Assembly (NCBI GenBank): GCA_943704525.1
Contig: CALSCQ010001377.1
Location: 1 to 29,335, forward strand
From: Pigoraptor vietnamica
Taxonomy: Eukaryota; Opisthokonta; Filasterea
DNA: 29,335 nt
Direction: 5' to 3'
In this document: one piece after another, positions 173-29,335 of the stretch
Layout of the letters: every line of letters begins with the position of its first letter
How positions within the stretch are numbered: the stretch's first letter is position 1
The notes under the pieces: model-generated
The model's input: the letters and a program-made list of their open reading frames with translations, nothing else
What the model was told of the DNA's origin: nothing
Databases searched by the model: none
Made by a program: the position numbers and the translations under genes

Positions 173-634
173 CGCGCGAGAGTGGGGCTTCATCGGCGTA
201 CAAGGCACAACTCATTTTACCTTCTTTTGTGGTATGAAATCAAAGAAAAACTAATATAGTATTGCCGTTACTAAGTTGCTAACCAGGCGCCGTGCTCACG
301 GTCACCAGTGAAAAATAGTTGCCATAACGACCGGTGAGTTTCGAAATTATATTCGGTTATTGCTATGGGCATACCTTTGAATTCCTGTGGCATGCTGCAT
401 CAAAATATGTCAAAATCCATTCAAAATTCCCAAAAATGGAAGGAGTTACCATGGAAGCCATGTCACACACCGCCCAACCCACACGCAAAGCTAACACCCC
501 CCACGGCCGTACAAATACCCCAAAAGCCGCTTCCGACTCATTGACAACTCGGAAGCAACGCCATCGCAGCATTCAGTTTGAAATCCCGCTACCCACTTTA
601 GTGCGCCCACCAGTGCGTAGCCGGAACCGTTAGC
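173..634. other. Intergenic region upstream of the repeat-protein gene
   Basis: About 460 bp with no convincing gene. It is less GC-rich than the flanking coding sequence and should hold the 3' UTR of the left-edge gene and the promoter and 5' UTR of the gene starting at 635. A 99-codon frame at 334-633 stops just before that ATG and has low-complexity Thr/Arg/Pro composition, so I treat it as leader sequence. No clear TATA box was recognised. Confidence 0.5.
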
Positions 635-3600
635 ATGGCTGGCGGTTCGTCCGTTGCCCCCATGCCCGAGGAGGGTGGGGCCAAATTTACTGTCGTGCAG
701 CGCGAGCCAGTCGGGTGGAAAATCTTGGCGGTTTTCACTTTCTGTATCGCCGTTCCCGCTCTCGTTATTGCCATCTACACATACGAGAATCCGCCCGAGG
801 CCGGTCCTGCCACTTCGTCGGCTAGTGGAAGCTTCAACGTCGAAACCATCAATGGCAGCCAAAGTGTCAGTCTCGCCTTGGGCTCAACGGAAGATCCTTA
901 CGCTCTCAAGTCAGCTAAGGTATGTGTTCAGTTTGGCTTTTTGTAATTTACGAACTGAACATTCCTCCGGACTTACGCTGACAACCGCCCGTCTGTTCCG
1001 GTAGGGTCAACCTCTCGTTCTTGGCCAAGCAGATCAGCCCATCATGTCCTTCACGACAACCGTGGTAGTGGTCACCACGCCATTCAACATTGCGGGTAAT
1101 CTGAAGGTTGGCGGGGCGACGAGTCGCCGTCGCGACGCGCAGCAAATTTTCGACGTCGACAGCAAAACCGGCAACGTCGCCGTTGGTGGAAATTTGACCA
1201 TTGCACAGGACGTTCGGCTTTCGGGAAATTTTAACGTTAATTCGGGTATGTTTACTGTCGATTCCGCAACCGGCGATGCGTACGTCAACGGCATGACGAA
1301 CGCAAAAGGCGACCTCAAGGTCAACACGAACAAGTTCACCGTCACGGCGTCGAACGGCAACACGGCCATCGCTGGCGACGTCGCCGTCAACACGAACAAG
1401 TTCACGATTGCGTCTGCGACCGGCAACACGGCGATTGCGGGCGACGTCGCCGTCAACACGAACAAGTTCACGGTCGCCGCCGCCACCGGCAACACGGCGA
1501 TCGACGGGACTGGCGACGTCAAGGGTGACTTCAAGGTCAACACGAACAAGTTCACCGTCACGGCGTCGAACGGCAACACGGCGATTGACGGGACTGGCGA
1601 CGTCAAGGGTGACTTCAAGGTCAACACGAACAAGTTCACCGTCACGGCGTCGAACGGCAACACGGCAATCGACGGGACTGGCGACGTCAAGGGTGACTTC
1701 AAGGTCAACACGAACAAGTTCACCGTCACGGCGTCGAACGGCAACACGGCCATTGCTGGCGACGTCGCCGTCAACACGAACAAGTTCACGATTGCGTCTG
1801 CGACCGGCAACACGGCGATTGCGGGCGACGTCGCCGTCAACACGAACAAGTTCACGGTCGCCGCCGCCACCGGCAACACGGCGATCGATGGCACTGGCGA
1901 CGTCAAGGGTGACTTCAAGGTCAACACGGACAAGTTCACCGTTACGGCGTCGAACGGCAACACGGCGATTGCGGGCGACGTCGCCGTCAACACGAACAAG
2001 TTCACGGTCGCTGCCGCCACCGGCAACACGGCGATCGACGGAACTGGCGACGTCAAGGGTGACTTCAAGGTCAACACGAACAAGTTCACCGTCACGGCGT
2101 CGAACGGCAACACGGCCATCGCTGGCGACGTCGCCGTCAACACGAACAAGTTCACGATTGCGTCTGCGACCGGCAACACGGCGATTGCGGGCGACGTCGC
2201 CGTCAACACGAACAAGTTCACGGTCGCCGCCGCCACCGGCAACACGGCGATCGACGGCACTGGCGACGTCAAGGGTGACTTCAAGGTCAACACGAACAAG
2301 TTCACCGTCACGGCGTCGAACGGCAACACGGCGATCGACGGGACTGGCGACGTCAAGGGTGACTTCAAGGTCAACACGGACAAGTTCACCGTCACTGCGT
2401 CAAACGGCAACACGGCCATCGCTGGCGACGTCGCCGTCAACACGAACAAGTTCACGATTGCGTCTGCGACCGGCAACACGGCGATTGCGGGCGACGTCGC
2501 CGTTAACACGAACAAGTTCACGGTCGCCGCCGCCACTGGCAACACGGCGATCGACGGGACTGGCGACGTCAAGGGTGACTTCAAGGTCAACACGGACAAG
2601 TTCACCGTCACCGCATCCAACGGCAACACGGCCATTGCTGGCGACGTTGCCGTCAACACGGACAAGTTCACCGTCACGGCGTCGAGCGGCAACACGGCCA
2701 TCGCCGGCACGGCCTCCGTTACGGGCGACCTCAGCGTCAACACGAACAAGTTCACCGTCACGGCGTCGAGCGGCAACACGGCCATCGCCGGCACGGCCTC
2801 CGTTACGGGCGACCTCAGCGTCAACACGGACAAGTTCGTTGTTACTGCGTCGAGCGGCAACACGGCCATCGCCGGCACGGCCTCGGTTACGGGTGACCTC
2901 AGCGTCAACACGAACAAGTTCACTGTCACGGCGTCGAGCGGTAACACGGCCATCGCCGGCACTGCCGCCGTTACGGGCGACCTCAGCGTCAACACGGACA
3001 AGTTCGTTGTTACTGCGTCGAGCGGCAACACGGCCATCGCCGGCACGGCCTCCGTTACGGGCGACCTCAGCGTCAACACGAACAAGTTCACTGTCACGGC
3101 GTCGAGCGGCAACACGGCCATCGCCGGCACGGCCTCCGTTACGGGCGACCTCAGCGTCAACACGGACAAGTTCACCGTCACTGCGTCGAGCGGCAACACG
3201 GCCATCGCCGGCACGGCCTCGGTTACGGGCGACCTCAGCGTCAACACTAACAAGTTCACTGTCACGGCGTCGAGCGGCAACACGGCCATCGCCGGCACGG
3301 CCTCGGTTACGGGCGACCTCAGCGTCAACACGGACAAGTTCGTTGTTACTGCGTCGAGCGGCAACACGGCCATCGCCGGCACGGCCTCGGTTACGGGCGA
3401 TCTCAGCGTCAACACGGACAAGTTCGTCGTTACAGCGTCGAGCGGCAACACTAACATTGCGGGAGGACTATATGTGGCGAAGACGACGATGATGGAAGCG
3501 CAGGCAATGGGCACGTCTGGCACTATCAACGGCGACGCGACTTTGACTGCTGCGCAAGTGATGGGCGGGTTCGTGATCCTGCTTGCAAACGCACAAGCGG

Positions 3601-3881
3601 ACCCCATCGTTATTACTCTACCGTCCGCTTCTTCACTGGCCACCGCTATCGGAGAGAGCGGGCAGGCTGCCGCAGCTGGCGACTGGGTTCGTCTCACGAT
3701 TTGCACGCAAGATACGGGGCGAATCTCGGTTGTGGCAGGGTCGAACGGCTCCGTCGCGACGCGCAACGATTGGGATGACCATGGCCTCGGAGACGAAGCA
3801 AACTCGACCTTCAACTCCGGTTGCGCGTCGTATATTCTCCGAATGACGTCTTCGTCTGCTTACAGCGTGTATGCAGCGTAA
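635..3881 (+). CDS. Membrane-anchored tandem-repeat fibre-like surface protein
   Basis: Two exons, 635-919 and 1005-3881, join in phase 0 across an 85-nt GT-AG intron and give 1053 aa. Residues about 28-48 are one hydrophobic segment after a short charged N-terminus, with no cleavage site evident, so it is a signal anchor with the bulk of the protein outside the membrane. Residues about 201-917 are 28 tandem repeats built on VNT(N/D)KF...GNTAIAG, preceded by two degenerate repeats. The last 135 or so residues are a non-repetitive domain with paired Cys. Such short beta-strand repeats with GNT turns resemble trimeric fibre or solenoid stalks of phage and giant-virus tail fibres and protist surface proteins; that comparison is from memory. 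A role as a cell-surface or scale fibre is inference. The following gene starts 128 bp downstream on the same strand. Confidence 0.8.
1320..3470 (+). repeat. Coding tandem repeat array, 66-bp and 84-bp units (28 copies)
   Basis: Each unit starts GTCAACACG(A/G)ACAAGTTC. In the first block (18 units, 1320-2651) 22-residue units ending AIAGDVA and 28-residue units ending GDVKGDFK alternate irregularly. The second block (2652 to about 3470) has nine 28-residue units ending TGDLS and one closing unit. Many units are identical at nucleotide level apart from single synonymous changes, which points to recent unequal crossing-over or gene conversion. The repeat composition keeps several other frames open on both strands. 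Confidence 0.95.
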
Positions 3882-4009: not shown

Positions 4010-4916
4010 ATGGCCGGTCGTGACCCTGTCGCGGTCGCCCTTGGGGGCCTGCTAAAGCAGACAAATGACGTCCGCACGGAGGCCGTTGAACGCGGTCTTG
4101 GCCACTGTGTGGACGCCGCGAGAGACGTTCACGAGCACGGCGCGGACGAGGCCCAGCTTCGCGAGTTGCAGGATGCCGTGGTGCTCCTCGCCCGCCTTGA
4201 CCAAAGGTTTGCACGCGCGCGTGTGTGTGTGTGTGTGTGTGGTTGCATGTGTGCATGTGTGCGTGTGCGCGCGGGCGCGCGCTGCGTTGCGTTTGTATGA
4301 AACATTATGGCTGCGTTTTTCAGTACTCATTTGTTGGTCGTTGCGCAGAATGGAGCTGCAGCATGCGATTCTCACCGAACTCACGAGGAGCGCCGCTGCC
4401 TATCCGAATGGGCAGGGAATGGGCGCAATCATGCAGCAGCGCTTGGACTCGCTCGTGGACAATGCTGCCGAACACCCCCAGTACAGGGTTTGTGTCGTTG
4501 TTTCTCATGGCGCGTACCGGCCATCGAACTTTGCTTAGTCACAGTTTATCACGTAGGACCTTCTTCAGCGCCTGAACCTCGCGGGCGGTGGCGACGACGA
4601 CGTGTTGGTGGAGGGCTGCCCTGCGCTCCCCCGTGTGTGCCCAATCACGCAGCGCGCCTTTGAGAATCCCGTTCGCAGCCGGCGGTGCAACCACGTCTAC
4701 TCGGAGAGTGCCATCCAGGAGCTCCTTCGCCATGGTCGAGGTGGCGAGGTGCGCTGTCCCGTGCCCGCGTGCCCGCACAAGGTGTCGCCGCGTGATCTCG
4801 TCGCGGACCCCTCCGTTGTGCGCGAGCTCAACAGGAGGCGCCGAGCAGAGGCACTTGCACATGCATCGCAAGGACCGAGTGCCAGCTCGGGCACAGAGGA
4901 AGACGTAATTCTTTAA
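4010..4916 (+). CDS. NSMCE2: NSE2/MMS21 E3 SUMO-protein ligase of the SMC5/6 complex
   Basis: Three exons (4010-4206, 4349-4487, 4557-4916) give 231 aa, close to the usual family length. The N-terminal 110 residues are predicted helical, matching the part of NSE2 that binds the SMC5 coiled coil. The C-terminal half carries the SP-RING: CPIT at 140-143, then C156, H158, and C179/C184 in RCPVPAC, with VRSRRCNHVYS giving the family signature. In other eukaryotes this ligase sumoylates partners in the nucleus for homologous-recombination repair. The first intron contains a TG microsatellite; both introns begin gtttg. The last residues are a polar tail. The assignment rests on the diagnostic zinc pattern; PIAS-type SP-RING proteins are longer and differ around the Cys/His spacing. 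Confidence 0.9.
4221..4241 (+). repeat. TG microsatellite in NSE2 intron 1
   Basis: About ten TG units just after the splice donor, followed by a looser tg/cg-rich stretch to about 4282. Confidence 0.95.
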
Positions 4917-5118
4917 CCCTTATCTGCTCGATTCCCAGTTGCCTGTTTATATTCTATCGAGTCTCAGTATTCTGGGCTGTCATTGAGACAACCATTTCTT
5001 GAAATATATGCTTGTATGGCGCTGATGCCTCGTCGAGACGATACCTACGGGAAACATTAGAGTCAAGCACGGTCTGAACCCGGTTCCGCGAAGTATTCAA
5101 CAAATTGTAGTGGGCTAC

Positions 5119-8100
5119 TCACGCTCCATCAGAAGCTTGAAGGAAGATGGTGTTCGTTGTAGGATCGAAAAAGACATTGACGATGTGACCGACAACGGCC
5201 GAAAAGCACGGACCAGCCTGAAAGCGAGAGGCTAGTAAATAGCATGTCTTTGATAGCAGGGATTGCGGTGCATGATACTTACATTCCCTTTTTGAAGTGA
5301 GCCGGTAACTATAAGGTCGCTCCACTGCGACTCATCCAATAGCCCGTCAGAGAGAGTGCCATTTGCGTCTCGAACTTCGACATTCTTTAACGCATAGACC
5401 GGACCCGTTGGCGTATCCAGTAAAAAGGCGGCCTTCTCAGCTTCAAGGAGGACACCTGGACGAGTCGATACTTGGTTATCGAACAACTTACATAGAAACG
5501 ATATGATTGACGATCGCACATTGTCAACAAAACATACCAGAAACTGGAGAAACTCCGCTTCCTGAATCCATACGTCTCAACAAATTCTCTTCGGAAAATA
5601 GTTCCTCGCGCTTCTTCGTCCACGGATACACAGGAACGTCGTTGAAAAAACCCCGGTGCCAGAGAATCTGCAGAACGTGTAGTTAGAATATAGTGAATGA
5701 AACATCAGACTCGTGTGTGAATGTAAAATCTGCAACTTTGAGGCTCCCCACCACCAACAGCAAAGCCAGAGCCGTTGGAATGGCGACGACGAGAACCAGT
5801 AAGCAAATCGCAACCGGCACAGACGTATGAAATGCGCGCGCCAGTTGATCGGCAAACCCTTGTCCTTTTGAGGACTGATTATGGCCGCCGTCATTGATGA
5901 CACCACCTCGATAATCTGCAAGCAAAATTGAGGTTTAGAGCTATGTGCACCGGCTCGCCGAACCGTTTGGTAAAGCGCAAGAGGAATAGACGTGCCTAAC
6001 AAACATTAATTTAAAAAAATCGGTTGAACTCACCACTATAATGCCGCACCCAGGTTTCTTGAAAGACAGTGACTTGTTGAGTTGGACAAAGAATTGATGG
6101 GAAACGAGCAGTAGTCGAGATTCTGCAACGACGCGCGTTGGACGTCGCATTGTAGCTGCTTGAAAGGAACGACAGTGAGTCGAATTGAGTACCCGTTTCC
6201 TCGGCTGCAATCAATGCTGACGGACCACAGACTCCAGTCATCAAGCAGCGCGCGAAATACCTCGCAAATATGAAGATAGACTGCGCCACATCGACAAGCG
6301 GAGAGTACAATGCAGTATCGATCGTCGGAACTGAACGCAAGCCCGTATCACAGTCGACAGACGTTGATAGAAGATTGACCTGTCGATACGAAGATACCGG
6401 CAGTTCAATTTAATGACATTCGTTCCTCGCAACACAATAGATTGTAACTCACTTCGCCAATGCTCTTGCCCGAAAGAACCAATGCCCCAACGAGCGACCC
6501 AAGGGAGGCATTAAAAGAAACGGTCGGCAAGGTTTGGTTCGAAAGAGAGAGAGTGAATGTAGGCCGAGGCCTAACTGCAAAGGCAATTACAGTACATTCA
6601 GCCACACTTACATCGGAAAGGAACACAGGTCACGCTGAATGTCTCCATACCGAATGTGCAAGGATCGCTGAGCCAACCGGCGTATGAAGCTAGAGGAAGG
6701 GCACAGCCAATTGCGGCCTTGCCTCTACGCTCCCACAGAGCTTTCTGTGTCACTTGCACGTCGAATGTACAGTTGATAAAGAGCTTGTCGATGGACGTCG
6801 GAAGTTGGGCTGGGTTACTACTGGTGACGTTGAACTTGAACACTTGCGAAAAGTTCTGTTGACCAACACGCGGACTCGGTCAGTTGCAGCCAGCGAATCT
6901 GCGTGGGGACAGGCACATTCGACTAACCGCGGGAATTACAGTTGAAATGTTCGACGGTGACTGGACGTTGAGCGAGGGGCACGAGAGTGAAGTTGCGAAG
7001 GTCCCCGAACCCTTACATGCGAAAGTCTTCAGTGTCAGTACCACGCACGTCATCGTCAAACGTAGTCCATGTATTAATGATTCGTAACGTACCGAACCAT
7101 AGTTCTTGACGACGATGTGGATTTCAGCCTCGTTTTCATGGCCCGTCATATTCGATGGATACACCTGAAATGGAAATTCACAGGCAAGGCCTGTCGAGCG
7201 ATTGCCGACGATCCAGTCGTCAACGGAGGCCAACAGCGACGGTTGCTGTACAGTGGAAACGGATAAAGAAATTGTTAACGTGAGCAAACCCGCGCGTGAC
7301 ATGTGCGCGCTGTCCGAGTGCGTGTACGTGTATGCGCAAATGAACGTGAAGCACATCAACAACATACCTGGATGTCAAGTTGTGAAATATTAATTGAAAG
7401 GGACGCCGTCCACTCGGCCGTTTGTTGATATTCTAACATAGCCGTTGGTCCGGGGTCGATGCGAAACCGGGCTACCCTGCCTCCATCCGCACTCAAAATC
7501 GAACCTGCAGTATGACATTTAACCAATTTCGGAGAAATGCAAGGGCACAATAATGACTCACCTCTCAGTCGCTCGTCGCCAAATGGAACATCAACGTCAG
7601 GGGACCGAACGAGGTTATGAATAGTCCATTCCAGACACGATTCTGTAAGTTGCAATGGAGAAAGCGTCACGGTTTGGCGTACAACCGATACTCCGAATTA
7701 CTAGAAGCCCGGCACTGATTGCGTCTCACCTACTGTCTTAGAGCACGGGTCCGTCACACTCAAAAACGACGATGTGTTCGGAGATATCTGACCACATGAC
7801 GATCCAACGCGGTCCTTGTCAACGTTCAAGATGGTCCCGGTGGGGCCAACAATAATGCGCAGCGAGCGCAGGATGTCGGACGCGGTGTCCTCAATGGCTC
7901 TGCAACAAGAAAAAAACAGGAATGTGAGTGACAAACCAGCAACGACGGAAACGGGTCCGGGACACAAACAGCACCCACCCTGATAGACGAACACTTATTG
8001 TATTGGACGACTTGAAGCCGGCACGCTCATTACCAGCAAAGACAATCGAGTCGACAATTTGACCTAAAGAATTACCCCGGATTAATACCGTCATACGCTG

Positions 8101-10064
8101 ACAGTTGGCAACTTCCACACTTACCGTCCCGCGCAAAAGCAATAGAAAAGCGATTGTCAATAACGACGTCAAAGGGCTCGTAAACCACAAACGCGCCACT
8201 GTCGCGGGCTTCGACCACGGAATGAAGGACTTGCGGGCACGACCAGCAGACGCTATTTCGAACGCTGCAGCGTGGACAGAGCAGCCCTGTGGGAATCCTT
8301 CTTTGCCACTGCAAGTAAAATCGACCGGGCGACGGAACAGTCAGACAGATGATGCGAACTCAACCAGTTGCGCCATATGTAAACAATACCTTTCCTTCGC
8401 TCCACTGAAACGGTTCGCTCAGAGTATCGCCGCCAGAGAATATTGCCAAAACGTACGTCGCTTTCGCTTCAATGACATCGGTGTCGTACACGGACAGCAC
8501 GTTGTCATACTCCGACGTCGGAACAACAGTGAAAATCGCGCTTAACTCGCCACTTCGAAAGCGACGGAGGCGGACGCTAAATTCGTTCGACGACGACTTA
8601 TCCCACGCGTACGAGTAATCGGGACCGCTTCCCACGCTCCCGTCAAGGATGCCCTCATCTTTCTCATAAACGTCATAAACGGTGGTGATGTTGCGAAGCG
8701 GAAGAACAGCTCTGGAATCTGTTTTTGAGGTTCAGCGACAAACCCAAATCGAGTGTGTCTGTAGAAGCACTTACCGTTTTTGGACAGACGAATTTCGTAA
8801 TTCCAGGTGAGGTGGTACACGTCCCCGAAGTCGTCAACGAGACTGAGATCCGTTGAACGAAGTACAACGGTACCACTCGTGTTAAAAGTCAATCGGGCTT
8901 GCACCTACATAGAGATTATTAGGACCAATGTAAGTGAATAGTCAATATGACATCCGCCAACTCAGACGGAGTCGGCCGACTGCCGGCCGCCGGCGGAGAA
9001 AGCCCGGGCGCCCGGTGCGGCCAGTCCGCCGGCACCAGTCACCGGCGCCGGCGGGCCGCCCGTGCAGGTACCCAGTGAGTGCCAATGCAGCCGGCTGTTC
9101 GCTTATGCCGTGGCCACACTGATAGCAGTTGTACTGACCTCAACGGAATTTGGACCCGCATCTGCCTGGGAGGACAATCGTGCTGTCTTTTCTCGCAGCA
9201 GGTTCAACGCACTGCTCGGAGATTCGACTGCTCCCGAAGCCGGAGTTGGACGAGCGATCGGCTGGCAATCTTTCGCAGCAGAACGTGGGGCGGACATCGC
9301 AGAGCGCAGCGCTTCGCTGGTGACCGGACAAAGCGAAAAGTTTGCACTTGCCCGATTATAGTAGTAAAACGTGGGTGTGGCGACTGGTAGAGTCGCGTTA
9401 TCGTCCGCGAGATAGAAACGCCCGATGATGACCAACTCTACGGTTGTGTTGCTGTCAATAAACGGATGGCATGTTAAGGCACGTCATTATTCGTCACTCG
9501 ACAGTCTCTCGGTGCCGGACGCGGTACTAATCAGCCGATGCCGGTACTGCACGGCCGAACACAACCGAGACATTACGCCAATAAAGCAACCACAGCCTTC
9601 GCACTGACAGGCAAAAGCGGATACATTGGTTGCTTGTCGAAAAGGAAGTTGATGCTTAAGACGTCGTAACCCGTATAGCCGACTGCTTTCGCGTAGTCTG
9701 GAATCATGCGACCAAAGCGCCCGCCTTGAAGATAAAGGGCTGGACGACCAGACTCGTCCACAGTTGTCGCGATCCATTGCGACAATGCCGTAGATGATAA
9801 GGACGACAACGCCACCGTTTTTGTCGCTGTCGCTGTAGGGCGAACGTACACTTTCTTCGAGAAGACTAGTGTTATCTTCAAAGGTACCTGGAGGTCCATG
9901 TTGTTAAAGTCGCTTCCAGGGTCGGGCGATACTTCATCGATTCGAAATCGAGTCGAACAAGGCTGACCGTCAATTGGCAAAGCCGCCCAATGACACGCGG
10001 CAACGATCAGCGTAAAAACGAACACGAATGAAGACCGGGAAGGAAAAGAGAGTGAGCGACGCAT
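5119..10064 (-). CDS. Large type I membrane protein with integrin-alpha-like GFF tail motif
   Basis: Nineteen exons, high to low: 10064-9577, 9451-9139, 8904-8775, 8718-8390, 8308-8125, 8063-7979, 7899-7730, 7690-7562, 7504-7368, 7245-7093, 7026-6928, 6855-6612, 6574-6453, 6379-6034, 5995-5951, 5915-5737, 5667-5538, 5455-5283, 5217-5119. All phases agree; product 1184 aa. Residues 1-33 are a signal peptide (basic MRRS start, long hydrophobic core). The ectodomain (to about 1022) is beta-rich with many N-x-S/T sites and a Cys cluster C431/C434/C441/C444. Residues about 1023-1048 are one transmembrane helix. It is followed at once by KILWHRGFFND (1051-1061), which resembles the juxtamembrane GFFKR motif of integrin alpha chains, and a 120-residue tail. 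I see no FG-GAP repeats or DxDxD calcium loops, so it is not a standard integrin alpha. HAP2 was considered and rejected. Family otherwise unknown. Head to head with the TALE gene. Confidence 0.8.
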
Positions 10065-10365
10065 TCTCACAACAGGCCAGCTCCTGTGAGGGATACCGAA
10101 CCAATACAATCGCCAACACTCAGTTTTCAGTCAGATAAAGCTGAGTGCTGCCGGTATCAATTGAACGTAGTATACCGGCGTGAAATGCCGTGCTGCATTA
10201 ATCGACCAATCAAAACTCGACTTGCCTTCACAAAGGGCCGTGAAGAGGAAACCGATGATTCTGATTGGGCGTTTACAATTCCCATGGGAATCGTGTCTCA
10301 ATTGACAGGATGACATCCGTCGCGGCACGACAAAACTGCTGCCCTTTCGGTCGCCTACTTTCGAA
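10065..10365. promoter_or_regulatory. Shared upstream region of surface-protein and TALE genes
   Basis: A 301-bp gap between two divergent start codons, so both promoters must lie here or in the flanking leaders. It holds an inverted pair of CCAAT elements: CCAATCA at 10206 and its complement TGATTGG at 10262-10268. This is the only motif pair I can point to; function is inferred. Confidence 0.4.
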
Positions 10366-11490
10366 ATGGAAAACGACGTCGCTTTCACTCTCGACTCTAT
10401 TTTAACCACAGCAGCGGCGTGGTATGAACAACAACTTCAAGACGGGGTGGCAGCGGCCGTGCCAGCATTCCGCGGAACGGTGCGAGACTCCAACTCGCCA
10501 GAGCCCGCCTTTCATCTCAGTTCGGCCGTTAGCGCGCTCTGCACGACGGACACACCAACAAACGACGGTGCGGCCGCGACAGCTGTCGACGAAAACATGG
10601 CGCTTGATTTCGACTTCGACGATTTCTCCGCCGAATGTCTCGAAGCGTTCGGCGAAATCAGTTCGGCGGCTTCAAGCGGCGACGCCGACTCTCTCTTATA
10701 TACCATTGGCGTCGCGAGCACCGGCGAGCCCTTCGTGCTTCATCCATCCGCCGCCGGCAGTGACGTTGTTAGTACCCGATCAACCGTGACACCATCGCTA
10801 AAGGAATTGGGGTGGTTGGGTGAAGCCGCTGGCGTCGAGCATCGCATGGGATCGCTTCGGTCCGAAACTGCCTTTGTTCTCCTCTCCATCCTCGTTACGC
10901 GCGCGAATGACGCCCGCCTCCTTGATTGCAACGAAGTCGCCGCTGACTACGATAAGCAGATAGATGATCTTTTCTTATCTCGCGGGATTTCGCCGGCGAA
11001 TCTACGGCACGAAACGCTACTTTCCGCGTGCGACGAACTCAACGACATCATCTTCGGCATGCTAGGCGTGTATGCGCACTTGAATAAGGAGCTAAACGGC
11101 GTCCGCGCGGCACTCCGAGAACTCGCCAACACTGCCGACGGAGCCTTATCGAGCGCTATTGCCAACGGCCTACGCGCTGAATGCCAGCGTCGCGCTGGCA
11201 CCGCGAGGAGACGCGCAGAAATGCAGATCAACGATCTCCGTACCGATTTTGTTGCCAAACGCAAAAGGGGAACGCACCCAAAGGAGACGATCCAAACGCT
11301 GAAGGCGTGGCTACATGCGCATCCGACAGATCCGTATCCAGACGAAATCGAGAAGCAAGCCCTCATGCGCACGACGGGTCTGACGTTGCGACAACTCGAC
11401 AACTGGTTTATCAACGCGCGCCGCCGCATCTTGCAGCCTATGATGGAACGCGCGCGTCACGAGGCTGGTCTTTCGGTGACCACCAATTAA
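10366..11490 (+). CDS. TALE-class homeodomain transcription factor
   Basis: Single exon, 374 aa. The homeodomain lies at about 293-356 and starts KRKRGTHPKE. It has the three-residue loop extension (HPTDPYPDE) between helices 1 and 2 and a recognition helix LDNWFINARRR with Ile at position 50, both hallmarks of the TALE class (Meis/PBX/KNOX/BELL type). Upstream of it, residues about 175-290 are helix-forming and could be a dimerisation region, but I cannot match them to MEINOX or PBC. The N-terminal 140 residues are acidic and low in complexity (LDFDFDDFSAE), like an activation domain. In protists TALE proteins often act in mating-type or ploidy control as heterodimers; that role here is inference. 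It is intronless amid intron-dense neighbours and ends only 46 bp from the convergent GTPBP1 stop. Confidence 0.93.
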   Translation: MENDVAFTLDSILTTAAAWYEQQLQDGVAAAVPAFRGTVRDSNSPEPAFHLSSAVSALCTTDTPTNDGAAATAVDENMALDFDFDDFSAECLEAFGEISSAASSGDADSLLYTIGVASTGEPFVLHPSAAGSDVVSTRSTVTPSLKELGWLGEAAGVEHRMGSLRSETAFVLLSILVTRANDARLLDCNEVAADYDKQIDDLFLSRGISPANLRHETLLSACDELNDIIFGMLGVYAHLNKELNGVRAALRELANTADGALSSAIANGLRAECQRRAGTARRRAEMQINDLRTDFVAKRKRGTHPKETIQTLKAWLHAHPTDPYPDEIEKQALMRTTGLTLRQLDNWFINARRRILQPMMERARHEAGLSVTTN

Positions 11491-11536
11491 AGAAATCGAT
11501 AGCCAAAACCTTAATGCCAGTTGAATAAGCAGTAAT

Positions 11537-13876
11537 CTACACAGAGATTGTTCTATTTTTTGCCTGCTGCCTCGTGTTCTCTGCTCTTGGAGCCTGAGGC
11601 GCCGCGGTGGCCCCTGCCTCGAACACCCGCGTCACCGTGCCCACTGCCTTTGTGCGCCCTTCGCGGAAGACAATGCGCGCGCCCACGGGAATGCACTCGG
11701 GGTGCCGCACGAGGCGGAACCGGACGGTGGCCTTGTCGCCCGTGCGCATGTGCTCACGGTCGGTCAGCTGCAGCGACGCCGTCTGCCGCACCGGCCCGCA
11801 GTGCACCATCGCCTGGTAGCGCGCGCCAATCGTGGTCGGGTGGTGCAGCACGAGAATGTCCGCCTCAAACTCGCGGCACGCGACGGGGTGCGCCTCGCGC
11901 GCGGCCAGCACCATGCCCTTGCGCACGGCACCGCGCTTGACCTTCTTGAGCGCAAACGACGCGGCCTGTCCGCCGCGCACGAGGTTCACCGGCGTGCGCT
12001 TGCGGTGGATGGACTTGATGGAGACGGGCTGGAACTGGCCGAGCGCATCCGGGCCAAGCAACAGTGTGTCGTTGGGCTGCACTGTCCCACGGAGCATCGT
12101 CCCCGAGACAACCGTTCCGACGCCCTGCAGCCGACCACAGGCCGTTGTCAGCGCAGCCGCACAAACCCCTGCCGGCCCAGCACACCGGCGATGCACAATC
12201 ACATCAAGTAGCGGCCACAAGGAGGCGAGAATGTAACAGCACGCACACGACGGAGAAGCCCGCGAAAACACACCGGCACTGCAAATGTCTCGTCGATTTG
12301 AAAGTACGCGGGTTCGTTGGCGTGGCTCTCCGCGCGCGTGGTGAGCAGGTTGAGAAAGAGGCGAAGGAGATCGAGGTTTTCGCCGGTGACGTTTGACACT
12401 TGGAATATGGGGCAAATTCTGTTGACGCACAACAACGACGACGGGGCACGAGGCAATCCATCGTTAAAGCGGAGACGCCATGTACAAGGGCAAAAAAAGC
12501 CCACCTTTCGGACACAAAGTTCGTTGCAGTGACAACGGCGTCGTCGGGGGAGGAGACGACGAGGGGGATCTTGCGGCAACCGGGCGACTTGAGCACCTTC
12601 GTGAGCATCGACATGGTCTCGCGAAACACATTCGGCGGACACATGTCAATCTTGGTTACGACGACAAAGACGGGGACGTTCAGCGCCAGTGCGAGGCCGA
12701 GGTGCTCTGCAACAGGCGCCATTCGGAGGGGAGCATGTAAGTCATTTGGGATGCACCCGTGTGCGCTGCGTGCGGGTAGCGGTCGACGGGGAAAAGACGG
12801 AGTTCCAACGATACGGACAGACACGGCGTGAAGGCCGGCAGCACACGGGCCCCGCAACCCACCCTTGGTCATCCCAATGACGCCGTGGTTCGCGCCCACC
12901 TGCGGCAGCAACCGGCCACGAACACCATCACCAACACAGGGACATACGAGAGCGCGTAACCACCCGCACTTGTTACGCACCATCAGCATGGCAAAGTCTG
13001 GCACGTGGCCGGTGAGCCCAAACACGGTCGTCTTGAGGTACTTCTCGTGCCCCGCAAGGTCAATGAACGTGATCACTTTCGATGCAGCCATGCAAATCTC
13101 GGTCCAGTCGAGCGCGCCCGTGTGCGCGTCCGGCGCGTTCACAGGCCGCCCCTTCGAGTCAAAGCCGAGAATGTCGTGGCCCACGCTGCTCGTGCGCCCG
13201 CTCTCGGACTCGTGCTTGTGGCGAAACAGCCGTGCGCGCGACAGGCCACGCCCGTTGTCGAGCGTGTTGTGCGTCAACACCCCAAGCAGCGTCGACTTGC
13301 CGGCGTCCACATTCCCGACGACGGCAACGCGAATCTCAAGAAAATCCCCCTCCGCCGCGCGCCGCCGCACGAGAAACTCGGCAACAGCCCCGCCGTCTTC
13401 GCGCCGCTCGCGCAAAAGGGAGGCGTCTGCGTCGGCCGCGTCCGCCAACCTTTGCAACGTCTCCTTCGACGCCTCCATCTCGGCGTCCGAGAGCCCACGC
13501 GCTGCGTCTGCACTCGCCGTAAGCGCACTTGCAAGCGCGATCAACTCAAGGGCAGCCACACGCACCTCCAATGCCAATCTCATAAAGCGTCTCGCCGTGC
13601 CCTTCCTGCAGCCGGCAGCGCAACGCGTCCAACAGCCGTGAAAACTCTTGCGGCGACGGATTCACAAGCCGTAACTGCGTAGACAAACGCGCTCAGATCG
13701 GGAGATGCACGCACCCACCCACGGCGCACAACACCCACCCGCACGTCCGTTCCTACGTCGGCCTGTCCGCCGTCGCTGTCCCCATCGCCAAGCAGGTCGA
13801 CGTCCGCGTCGCTCCCACCAAACAGCGCGTGGGCCGCGGCAAACTGTGCGCCGGGCTGTTCTTTTGGTTGTGCCAT
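11537..13876 (-). CDS. GTPBP1: GTPBP1/GTPBP2-family translational GTPase
   Basis: Seven exons (13876-13745, 13674-13566, 13507-12981, 12899-12863, 12706-12505, 12418-12274, 12124-11537) give 579 aa. The N-terminus is acidic, followed by the family's own upstream domain (LRLVNPSP... then [17 protein letters not shown]). The G domain has P-loop GNVDAGKST at 145-153, switch region [22 protein letters not shown] at 230-236 and TKID for guanine recognition. The EF-Tu-like domains 2 and 3 follow ([33 protein letters not shown]). This family is related to EF-1A and Hbs1 and in animals has been linked to ribosome-stall rescue and mRNA turnover. The human protein is longer mainly at both termini. The 37-nt fourth exon is unusually small. 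GTPBP1 versus GTPBP2 cannot be settled by eye; a single ancestral member is likely. Confidence 0.93.
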
Positions 13877-26878: not shown

Positions 26879-28187
26879 TCAGAACGTGTGGCGGCGGGCG
26901 GGCTGCTCCACGCTCCCGCCGGCGCCGTCGCCCTCTGCCGTGCCCTTGTCCAGCGCCTGCGCCTGCGCCTCCTTGAGGGCCGCGGCGTCGACCGTGAACT
27001 TGATTGCGTCTGCGGCCGCGCGCGTGCGAAGGTAGTACATGCCCGTCTTGAGGCCGCGCTTCCACGCGTAAAAGTGCATCGACGTGAGCTTTGCGTACGT
27101 GGGATCGGACACGTGCAGGTTGAGCGACTGCGACTGGTCGACAAATGCGCCGCGGTCCGCCGCGAGGTCGATGATGCGGCGCTGCGAGATCTCCCACACC
27201 GTCTTGTACAGCGCGCGGAGGTCGGCGGGGATTTCGGGGATGCCCTGCACGGAGCCATTGGCGGCGATGATCTTGTTCTTCATCGCCTCGCTCCACAGCC
27301 CGCGCTGCGCAAGGTCGCGGAGCAGGTGGTGGTTGACGACCTGGAACTCGCCCGAAAGCACCCTGCGACGGACGGCGTGTGAGCGGCAGCGCTCCCGGTC
27401 AACTGCATGGTGTGCTGGCGGACGCACTCACCGCCGCGTGTAAATGTTGCTCGTGTAAGGCTCGATCGACTCGTTGTTCCCCAGAATTTGCGCGGTAGAC
27501 GCCGTGGGCATCGGCGCGACAAGCAGGCTGTTGCGCACGCCGTGTTCGCGGATGCGCGCGCGGAGCCCCTCCCAGTCCCAGCGGCTCGACGGCGTCACGC
27601 CCCACATGTCGTGCTGCAGAATGCCCTGCGGTGCAATACAAGCGTCAGCACGCCCGCACCTTCAGACCATTGACCACACCGATCATTCGCAAGCGAACCT
27701 TGGAGACAGGCGAGCCCTCGTACGACGGGTACGGCCCGTCGACAGCCGCCAGCTCGGCAGACGCGGACAGGGCGGCGAAGTAAATCGTCTCGAATATGTC
27801 GCGGTTGATGTCGCGCGCGCCATCCGAGTCAAACGGCACGCGCATGAGGATGAACGTGTCCGCAAGTCCCTGCACACCAAGGCCGATCGGCCGGTGCCTG
27901 CGTACACGAGAGCATATGAGAACAATGTTGCAGTGCATGCACACGCAGTGCACGCAGCAGCGTCGTGTGCGCACCGAAAGTTGGATCGGCGCGCCTCGGG
28001 CACGGGATAGTGGTTGATGTCGATGATCCGGTTCAGATTGCGCGTCGCCACACGGGTGACCTCCGCCAGCCGCTCGTGGTCGAACGTGCCGTCGGGGCGT
28101 ACGAACTTGGGCAGTGCAATCGATGCAAGGTTGCAGACGGCAACCTGTGCGCGCTGGCGGTGAGCTAGCGTCCAAGGACGCCGAAGG

Positions 28188-28236
<49 letters not shown>

Positions 28237-29166
28237 CGCGTGTGTGTGCATCAGGGAGGGCAACAGACCTCATCGGGGCTCGTGTACTCGACGATCTCCG
28301 TGCACAAATTCGAGCACTTGATGGTGCCGAGGTTCTGCTGGTTGCTCTTCGCATTGCACGCGTCCTTGTACAGCAGATAGGGCGTCCCCGTCTGCGCGCG
28401 CGCCGCGTGAGCGATGGTACAGACGCAACCACGGCGATCGGCAAGCAGCGTGTGTCACACATCGCACAGGAACACACGCACCTCCATCTGCGCCTCCACA
28501 ATCGCGTGCCACAGCTTCTGCGCCGGCACGACCTTGCGCGCCCGGCCCTCCGCCTCGTAGCGCTCGTAGAGTGCGTCGAATGCGGCGCCGTGGCAGTCGC
28601 TGAGACCCGGGCACTCGTGCGGGCAGAAGAGCGACCAGTTCCCGTTGGCCTCCACGCGCCGCATGAACCCGTCGGGCACCCACAGCGCGAGGAAAAGGTC
28701 CTGCATCAGATTCGCGCGATGAGCCAGCTGGAACAATAAAGCACAGGACAGCGCGCACGTGACGCACCCGCGCGCGGTTCTCCTCCTTGCCCGTGTTCTT
28801 GCGCAGCTCAATAAACTCAAACACATCGGCGTGCCAGGGCTCCAAGTACACGGCGATCGACCCGTTGCGCTTGCCGCCGCCCTGCGTCACAAACCGCGCC
28901 TGCAGCCATGCCATCAGATCACGTGGATGGGTCCCACTGCGCACAAGCCACACGGGCTGGCGGGGGATGCGCAGCCTGTGAGAGACGACTGGACACACTC
29001 CACGCACCGTCGCATCAAAGTTGCGGAGCATGGGGATGAGTCCGTTGCTGGTGCCGTTGGTACCCGCAATGTAGGTGCCGCTGGCCCGGATGTTGTGGAC
29101 GTTGATGCCAATTCCGCCGGAGCTCTTGCTGATCAGCGCGCACGTCTTGAGCGTGTCGTAGATGCC
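26879..29166 (-). CDS. RRM1: Ribonucleoside-diphosphate reductase large subunit R1, 5' end cut by window
   Basis: Eight exons (29166-29008, 28899-28768, 28700-28482, 28391-28269, 28144-27975, 27897-27699, 27625-27432, 27362-26879) encode the C-terminal 559 aa; roughly the first 200 residues lie beyond the window. Class Ia R1 reduces NDPs to dNDPs in the cytosol using a radical from R2. Catalytic residues are visible: Cys of [11 protein letters not shown], the N-x-C-x-E loop NLCTE, the partner Cys in VAVCNLAS, and the two radical-path tyrosines in MYYLRTR. Other landmarks are [27 protein letters not shown] and [12 protein letters not shown]. After MYYLRTR the tail is low in complexity and ends RRHTF with no cysteine pair in this reading, which is unusual. 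Introns hold CA/TG microsatellites. Confidence 0.95.
28191..28232 (+). repeat. TG microsatellite in an RRM1 intron
   Basis: 21 TG units on the + strand (CA in the RRM1 transcript) between the exons ending at 28144 and beginning at 28269. Confidence 0.97.
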
Positions 29167-29234
29167 CTACGCAGGGGACAAGGAACTCTGCTGAGACAGA
29201 CAGGCACACACACCCACACCCACACCCACACATC

Positions 29235-29335
<101 letters not shown>

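Follow-up and report, generated by a model that had tools for sequence, protein, structure and literature searches.

The question raised by this locus is whether a predicted surface protein with an integrin-alpha-like GFF motif directly after its membrane helix is an integrin alpha chain or belongs to another family. The gene lies on the minus strand (4954..10064) of a 29,335-nucleotide stretch of Pigoraptor vietnamica DNA (CALSCQ010001377.1; hereafter the window), which is contig C562 of a 32.5-Mb assembly of 1395 contigs. It was rebuilt by hand from splice sites and reading frame, with one continuous open frame required, and the predicted coding region comprises 19 exons encoding 1177 amino acids (aa). 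The sequence suggests a HAP2-motif relative of the HgrB kind, that is, a diverged single-pass surface glycoprotein of the HAP2/GCS1 family, a reading to which we give a probability of about 0.8. On this reading the GFF tail resembles integrin alpha through a short motif and is not a mark of descent.

In Pfam searches of the protein at E up to 10, where few matches with E above about 0.1 survive the HMMER filters, HAP2-GCS1 (PF10699) was the only family listed for the whole protein, with 37.5 bits (E 1.4e-9) against a curated cut-off of 27.4. When aa 482-784 were searched alone, the score rose to 41.4 bits (E 9.1e-11). The homology extends over aa 530-730 and profile positions 239-436 of 515 (6820..7841, minus strand, exons 7-12), and its core consists of two colinear pieces, aa 532-580 on profile positions 253-304 (19.2 bits) and aa 651-730 on 362-436 (17.3 bits), each of which falls under the cut-off when taken singly. 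The controls, a reversed core and three shuffles (of four made), gave no match to PF10699.

Within this region, the HAP2-GCS1 motif GSSCGQISPNTSSFLSVTDPCSKTVESCL (aa 542-570; 7632..7805, minus strand) follows the pattern G-x2-C-x9-F-x6-C-x6-CL. Its spacing is identical to that of the HAP2-like PDB chains 5ow4, 7s0k and 5mf1, and the motif of the canonical HAP2 encoded on contig C950 of the same assembly is one residue longer; the motif cysteines thus keep the conserved spacing of HAP2-related proteins when set beside these four sequences. The pattern was absent from all shuffled versions of the window protein (0/20000). As intron 7 (7729-7643) lies inside the motif, it is only the exon 7/8 junction that completes it, and this junction had been modelled ahead of the Pfam search. 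A second feature of HAP2-related proteins, a signal-like N-terminus combined with a single C-terminal membrane helix, was also present by hydropathy.

Several results weigh against this assignment. Evidence of homology is limited to a single Pfam model, applied to the spliced protein, and the motif, and a small profile built from C950 and the three PDB chains scored the window protein at -0.4 bits, with 12/200 shuffles higher. Pairwise comparison with C950 gave 40 for the ectodomain (shuffle mean 43; 360/500 shuffles as high) and 33 for the core (shuffle mean 35; 303/500 as high). Neither the protein nor its core matched any PDB chain by sequence, aa 40-482 and aa 752-969 had no Pfam match, and a six-frame genome search with PF10699 (E up to 1) returned three matches, all on C950, and missed this gene, in which the match is distributed across several exons. 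Any gamete role would moreover be assigned by analogy. The window protein had no NCBIfam match either. Homology between its tail and that of C950 was considered and rejected (36 vs a shuffle mean of 29; 51/500 shuffles as high). A paralogue search with the whole protein returned 19 matches, 18 of them in the window and one on C478 (E 0.03), which was taken as chance. Viral contigs, the one collection scanned for relatives, yielded none by tblastn, either for aa 482-784 (5 candidate stretches) or for the N-terminal 400 aa of C950 (24 candidates).

The single source of the homology, together with the failure of both the self-built profile and the pairwise comparisons to recover the protein, would fit an unrelated beta-sandwich surface protein that matches the HAP2 profile by chance. 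An E of 9.1e-11 for aa 482-784, two colinear pieces with clean controls and the HAP2-like motif spacing all speak against such a coincidence, which we regard as distinctly improbable. The canonical HAP2 on C950 and a single genome match to each of the Mnd1 and TBPIP models, the latter of which we take to be the Hop2 family, were counted in favour of the HAP2 assignment.

As to whether the protein is itself a fusogen, the canonical protein of the same genome provides the reference. The C950 gene is predicted to encode 888 aa and scores 316 bits over PF10699 profile positions 2-500 of 515. A PDB search with it gave 14 rows, five named HAP2 or GCS1 and eight weak rows for lipoprotein carriers; the best, 5ow4 (E 3.8e-48), is titled uncharacterized protein and aligns like the HAP2 rows. 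As side observations on this locus (C950:3500-13000), a second hydrophobic segment follows the cysteine-rich stretch and is succeeded later by SKGFFDG, and 3/15 introns of the model start with GC rather than GT.

Two features of canonical HAP2 were not found in the window protein. The first is the domain II fusion-loop tip and the conserved cysteines that it carries: there was no match to PF10699 within aa 40-482, and no SQGFCC-like stretch of the kind present in C950 and the PDB chains was found. The second is a cysteine-rich basic juxtamembrane stretch, reported for many HAP2 orthologues in PMC8777248; the window protein has ILWHRGFFND at the place where C950 has RRFCTCCKSCC. What it does have is a cysteine cluster, LCPRCSVRNSVCWSC (aa 430-444; 8237..8281, minus strand), of the form CxxC-x6-CxxC, which was not recognised as a tip. 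An end-to-end alignment sets this cluster against the C950 tip GFCCQCS, and it could be argued that aa 431-444 are a shortened, diverged tip and that the protein is a true second fusogen, able to fuse membranes unaided and perhaps carried by the opposite mating type. HAP2 tips are described as very variable in length and sequence in PMC6089408, and according to PMC10630298 mating in Leishmania requires the paralogue HAP2-2. The alignment at the cluster, however, is without statistical support, nothing matched ahead of profile position 239, and aa 200-544 contain six cysteines only, four of them in the cluster. A second fusogen is consequently rather unlikely in our estimation. Lacking a recognisable fusion-loop tip, the protein is therefore best filed, on present sequence evidence, as a HAP2-motif relative and not as a canonical fusogen. 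A HAP2-motif protein with no recognisable tip beside a full HAP2 in one genome would offer a handle on roles of HAP2 relatives besides membrane insertion.

The integrin question depends on the gene model at the 3′ end. The exons run on the minus strand as follows: 1-7 at 10064-9577, 9451-9139, 8904-8775, 8718-8390, 8308-8125, 8063-7979 and 7899-7730; 8-13 at 7642-7562, 7504-7368, 7245-7093, 7011-6928, 6855-6612 and 6574-6453; and 14-19 at 6379-6034, 5915-5737, 5667-5538, 5455-5283, 5217-5123 and 5044-4954. An additional intron within exon 14 (6260-6205) was discarded, its removal breaking the frame. The initial annotation had described an integrin-alpha-like GFF tail on a signal-peptide-bearing surface protein of 1184 aa, with the gene ending near 5119; the tail motif, the membrane helix and the ectodomain features were recovered in the rebuilt model, whereas the exon count, the length, the end of the gene, the splice donor before the GFF and the length of the tail had to be changed.

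Hydropathy places a hydrophobic stretch at aa 11-32, in agreement with the proposed signal peptide, and a transmembrane helix at aa ~987-1012 (5746..5823, minus strand; values up to 3.05). The ectodomain is indeed rich in potential glycosylation sites, with 18 of the 19 N-glycosylation sequons preceding the membrane segment. Splicing out the intron that ends at 5668 brings ILWHRGFFND (5638..5667, minus strand; GFF codons 5652-5644) directly behind the single helix. This intron is needed because the frame that retains it runs into a stop (open reading frame 5683-5934). The junction, given as exon 16/17 by the initial annotation, is in frame as proposed and becomes 15/16 in the 19-exon model. 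The donor originally chosen at 5736 (AAA/GTTGCA) was the poorest in the gene: a matrix derived from the remaining 17 introns, whose own donors range from 3.6 to 11.8 bits, gave it -4.8 bits, compared to 4.5 bits for 5751 (GTG/GTGGGG) and 0.2 for 5754. All three are in phase and keep the GFF, but 5751 and 5754 do away with the K of KILW; with 5751 the junction reads LALLLVILWHRGFFND. Therefore, with the better-scoring donor the intron spans 5668..5751 (minus strand), and exon 15 probably ends at 5752 rather than 5737, giving a protein of 1172 aa. The tail has 162 aa after K1015, in place of the roughly 130 first estimated.

Three explanations had been offered for the GFF tail: a highly diverged integrin alpha that holds an integrin beta with this tail, a new family of adhesion receptors with the same clasp, or convergence on a short motif. 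For the first, W-x2-GFF directly after the helix is shared with integrin alpha, LWHRGFFND resembles the LWKLGFFKRK of one gene on contig C928, and integrin beta is matched elsewhere in the genome on C661, C928 and C829, with one further match below cut-off on C373. The remaining evidence speaks against an integrin alpha. No FG-GAP match was listed when the protein was searched entire or as four pieces, as the initial annotation had also seen from the sequence, and no Pfam match to thigh or calf domains was found; the silence of the integrin alpha model PF08441 weighs little here, since it finds nothing anywhere in the genome and one C928 candidate is likewise without a Pfam match. The tail reads HRGFFND and not KxGFFKR, lacking K-R after the GFF, and at 162 aa it is long. 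With HAP2-GCS1 the ectodomain scores over the curated threshold, and no integrin model matches it. A diverged integrin alpha was rejected on these grounds and is hardly credible.

It also counts against the integrin reading that a WKLGFFKR tail occurs in two other genes. In both of these, which lie on C928, a hydrophobic segment is immediately followed by WKLGFFKRKPKPP and a short acidic end. They flank the integrin beta match there at ~8.5 and 3.4 kb, so that C928 has the appearance of an integrin cluster, with two integrin-alpha-like genes around the beta match. Ahead of one of them, an FG-GAP-like stretch scored below cut-off (14.2 vs 22.1 bits), and a Pfam search of its 1168-aa frame (E up to 0.1) found nothing; the two genes are taken as integrin alpha candidates from their sequences. 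Elsewhere in the genome there were at least 11 FG-GAP matches, with the strongest of those listed on C584 and C547. The pattern K-x-GFF-K occurred at 4 places in the genome compared to 3 for the backward control.

A new adhesion-receptor family, as it had been stated, does not fit an ectodomain in which a known family is recognisable, and convergence is the explanation that holds. Given the amino-acid composition of the window protein and C950, chance would put a GFF among the 10 juxtamembrane residues of ~0.2% of single-pass proteins, and therefore GFF alone is weak evidence. W-x2-GFF, with a rate of ~2e-5, is less easily explained by chance. The initial annotation would have given up the integrin alpha if the ectodomain confidently matched an unrelated family and the GFF was poorly conserved among close homologues. 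Such a match was obtained; GFF conservation could be viewed only in the distant relative C950, in which RRFCTCCKSCCG follows the first membrane segment, and no close homologue was found in searches of the same genome and of viral contigs. The case warns against calling an integrin from nothing more than W-x2-GFF behind a membrane helix.

Upstream of the HAP2-related gene and divergent from it, a TALE (KN-type) homeobox gene occupies one open frame of 374 aa (10366..11490, plus strand; PF05920 61.6 bits, PF00046 24.6 bits), one of five TALE matches in the genome. The start codons are separated by 301 bp (10065..10365), which contain TTGACAG at 10302 and TGACA at 10311; the former, presumably a TALE-type site, is one of two occurrences on both strands of the 29-kb window. 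No second allele or copy of 4500-13500 was found in the assembly, where the region is single-copy and the sole other match is the homeobox of C1253. Homeobox genes of this type control sexual life cycles in some other organisms. In PMC13353863, a red-algal mating-type region is described as holding GCS1/HAP2 (gene CMK076C), and TALE factors are placed in sex-determining regions of Bostrychia. The head-to-head pair, with what would be a shared 301-bp promoter, might form the core of a mating-type locus, in which the homeobox protein would set mating identity or zygote fate and drive a partner-recognising surface protein. We consider this quite doubtful, because the link was seen only in hindsight and the genes in the window are closely spaced; a term-based literature search for a HAP2/TALE mating-locus link found no paper containing all five terms, and 13 containing three of four. 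The homeobox neighbour nevertheless makes the idea directly testable in an integrin-bearing eukaryote. If true, the arrangement would parallel, in an integrin-bearing lineage, the Dictyostelium type II locus with MatB and MatD, and the pairing of a homeobox gene with a HAP2-motif gene would look old or repeatedly arising.

As for the rest of the surroundings, the convergent neighbour at 4557-4916 (plus strand) has a MIZ zinc finger of the Nse type (zf-Nse, 58 bits) and is probably the SUMO ligase subunit NSE2. At 602-3881 (plus strand), a frame with a membrane-helix-like stretch precedes a 958-aa frame of near-identical repeats of the VNTNKFTVTASSGNTAIAG type, fibre-like in look and with a different C-terminal part; the parts tested had no Pfam match over a cut-off. 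GT/CA microsatellites are frequent, at 4180-4300, 28150-28250 and 29170-29335, and also in many introns of C950:3500-13000.

Regarding function, if the protein is a HAP2 relative it is perhaps, by a slight preference and by analogy, a gamete-surface partner of C950. It would be placed on the gamete plasma membrane and would aid the canonical HAP2 in cell-cell recognition or in assembly of the fusion machine, much as Dictyostelium requires HgrB beside HgrA. Second HAP2 genes are recorded in Leishmania and Plasmodium in PMC10630298, where a second HAP2-related gene is said to matter for mating in the organisms studied (Dictyostelium, Plasmodium and Leishmania), and in volvocine algae in PMC10256686. 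A literature search found no paper joining HAP2 with integrin and Thecamonas.

Compared to canonical HAP2/GCS1, the window protein shares the motif, the region that follows it and the form of a membrane-anchored surface protein, but its ectodomain is longer and without a recognisable tip, and no cysteine-rich basic stretch follows its helix. The closer parallel lies in Dictyostelium. PMC4910948 describes a weak similarity to the HAP2-GCS1 motif in MatD of the type II mating-type locus and MatT of the type III locus, and the homeodomain-like MatB is a further product of the type II locus (PMC5580921); the neighbour here differs in being a plain TALE homeobox gene, not MatA- or MatB-like. PMC4910948 also presents HgrA as a normal HAP2 and HgrB as similar to HAP2 in the motif region only, each needed for mating in two of the three mating types, with HgrB restricted to dictyostelids according to Okamoto et al. 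By that description, HgrB resembles the window protein in its signal peptide, its mid-protein HAP2-GCS1 motif and its probable membrane region near the C-terminus, as well as in the confinement of HAP2 similarity to the motif region and the presence of a normal HAP2 alongside, HgrA there and C950 here.

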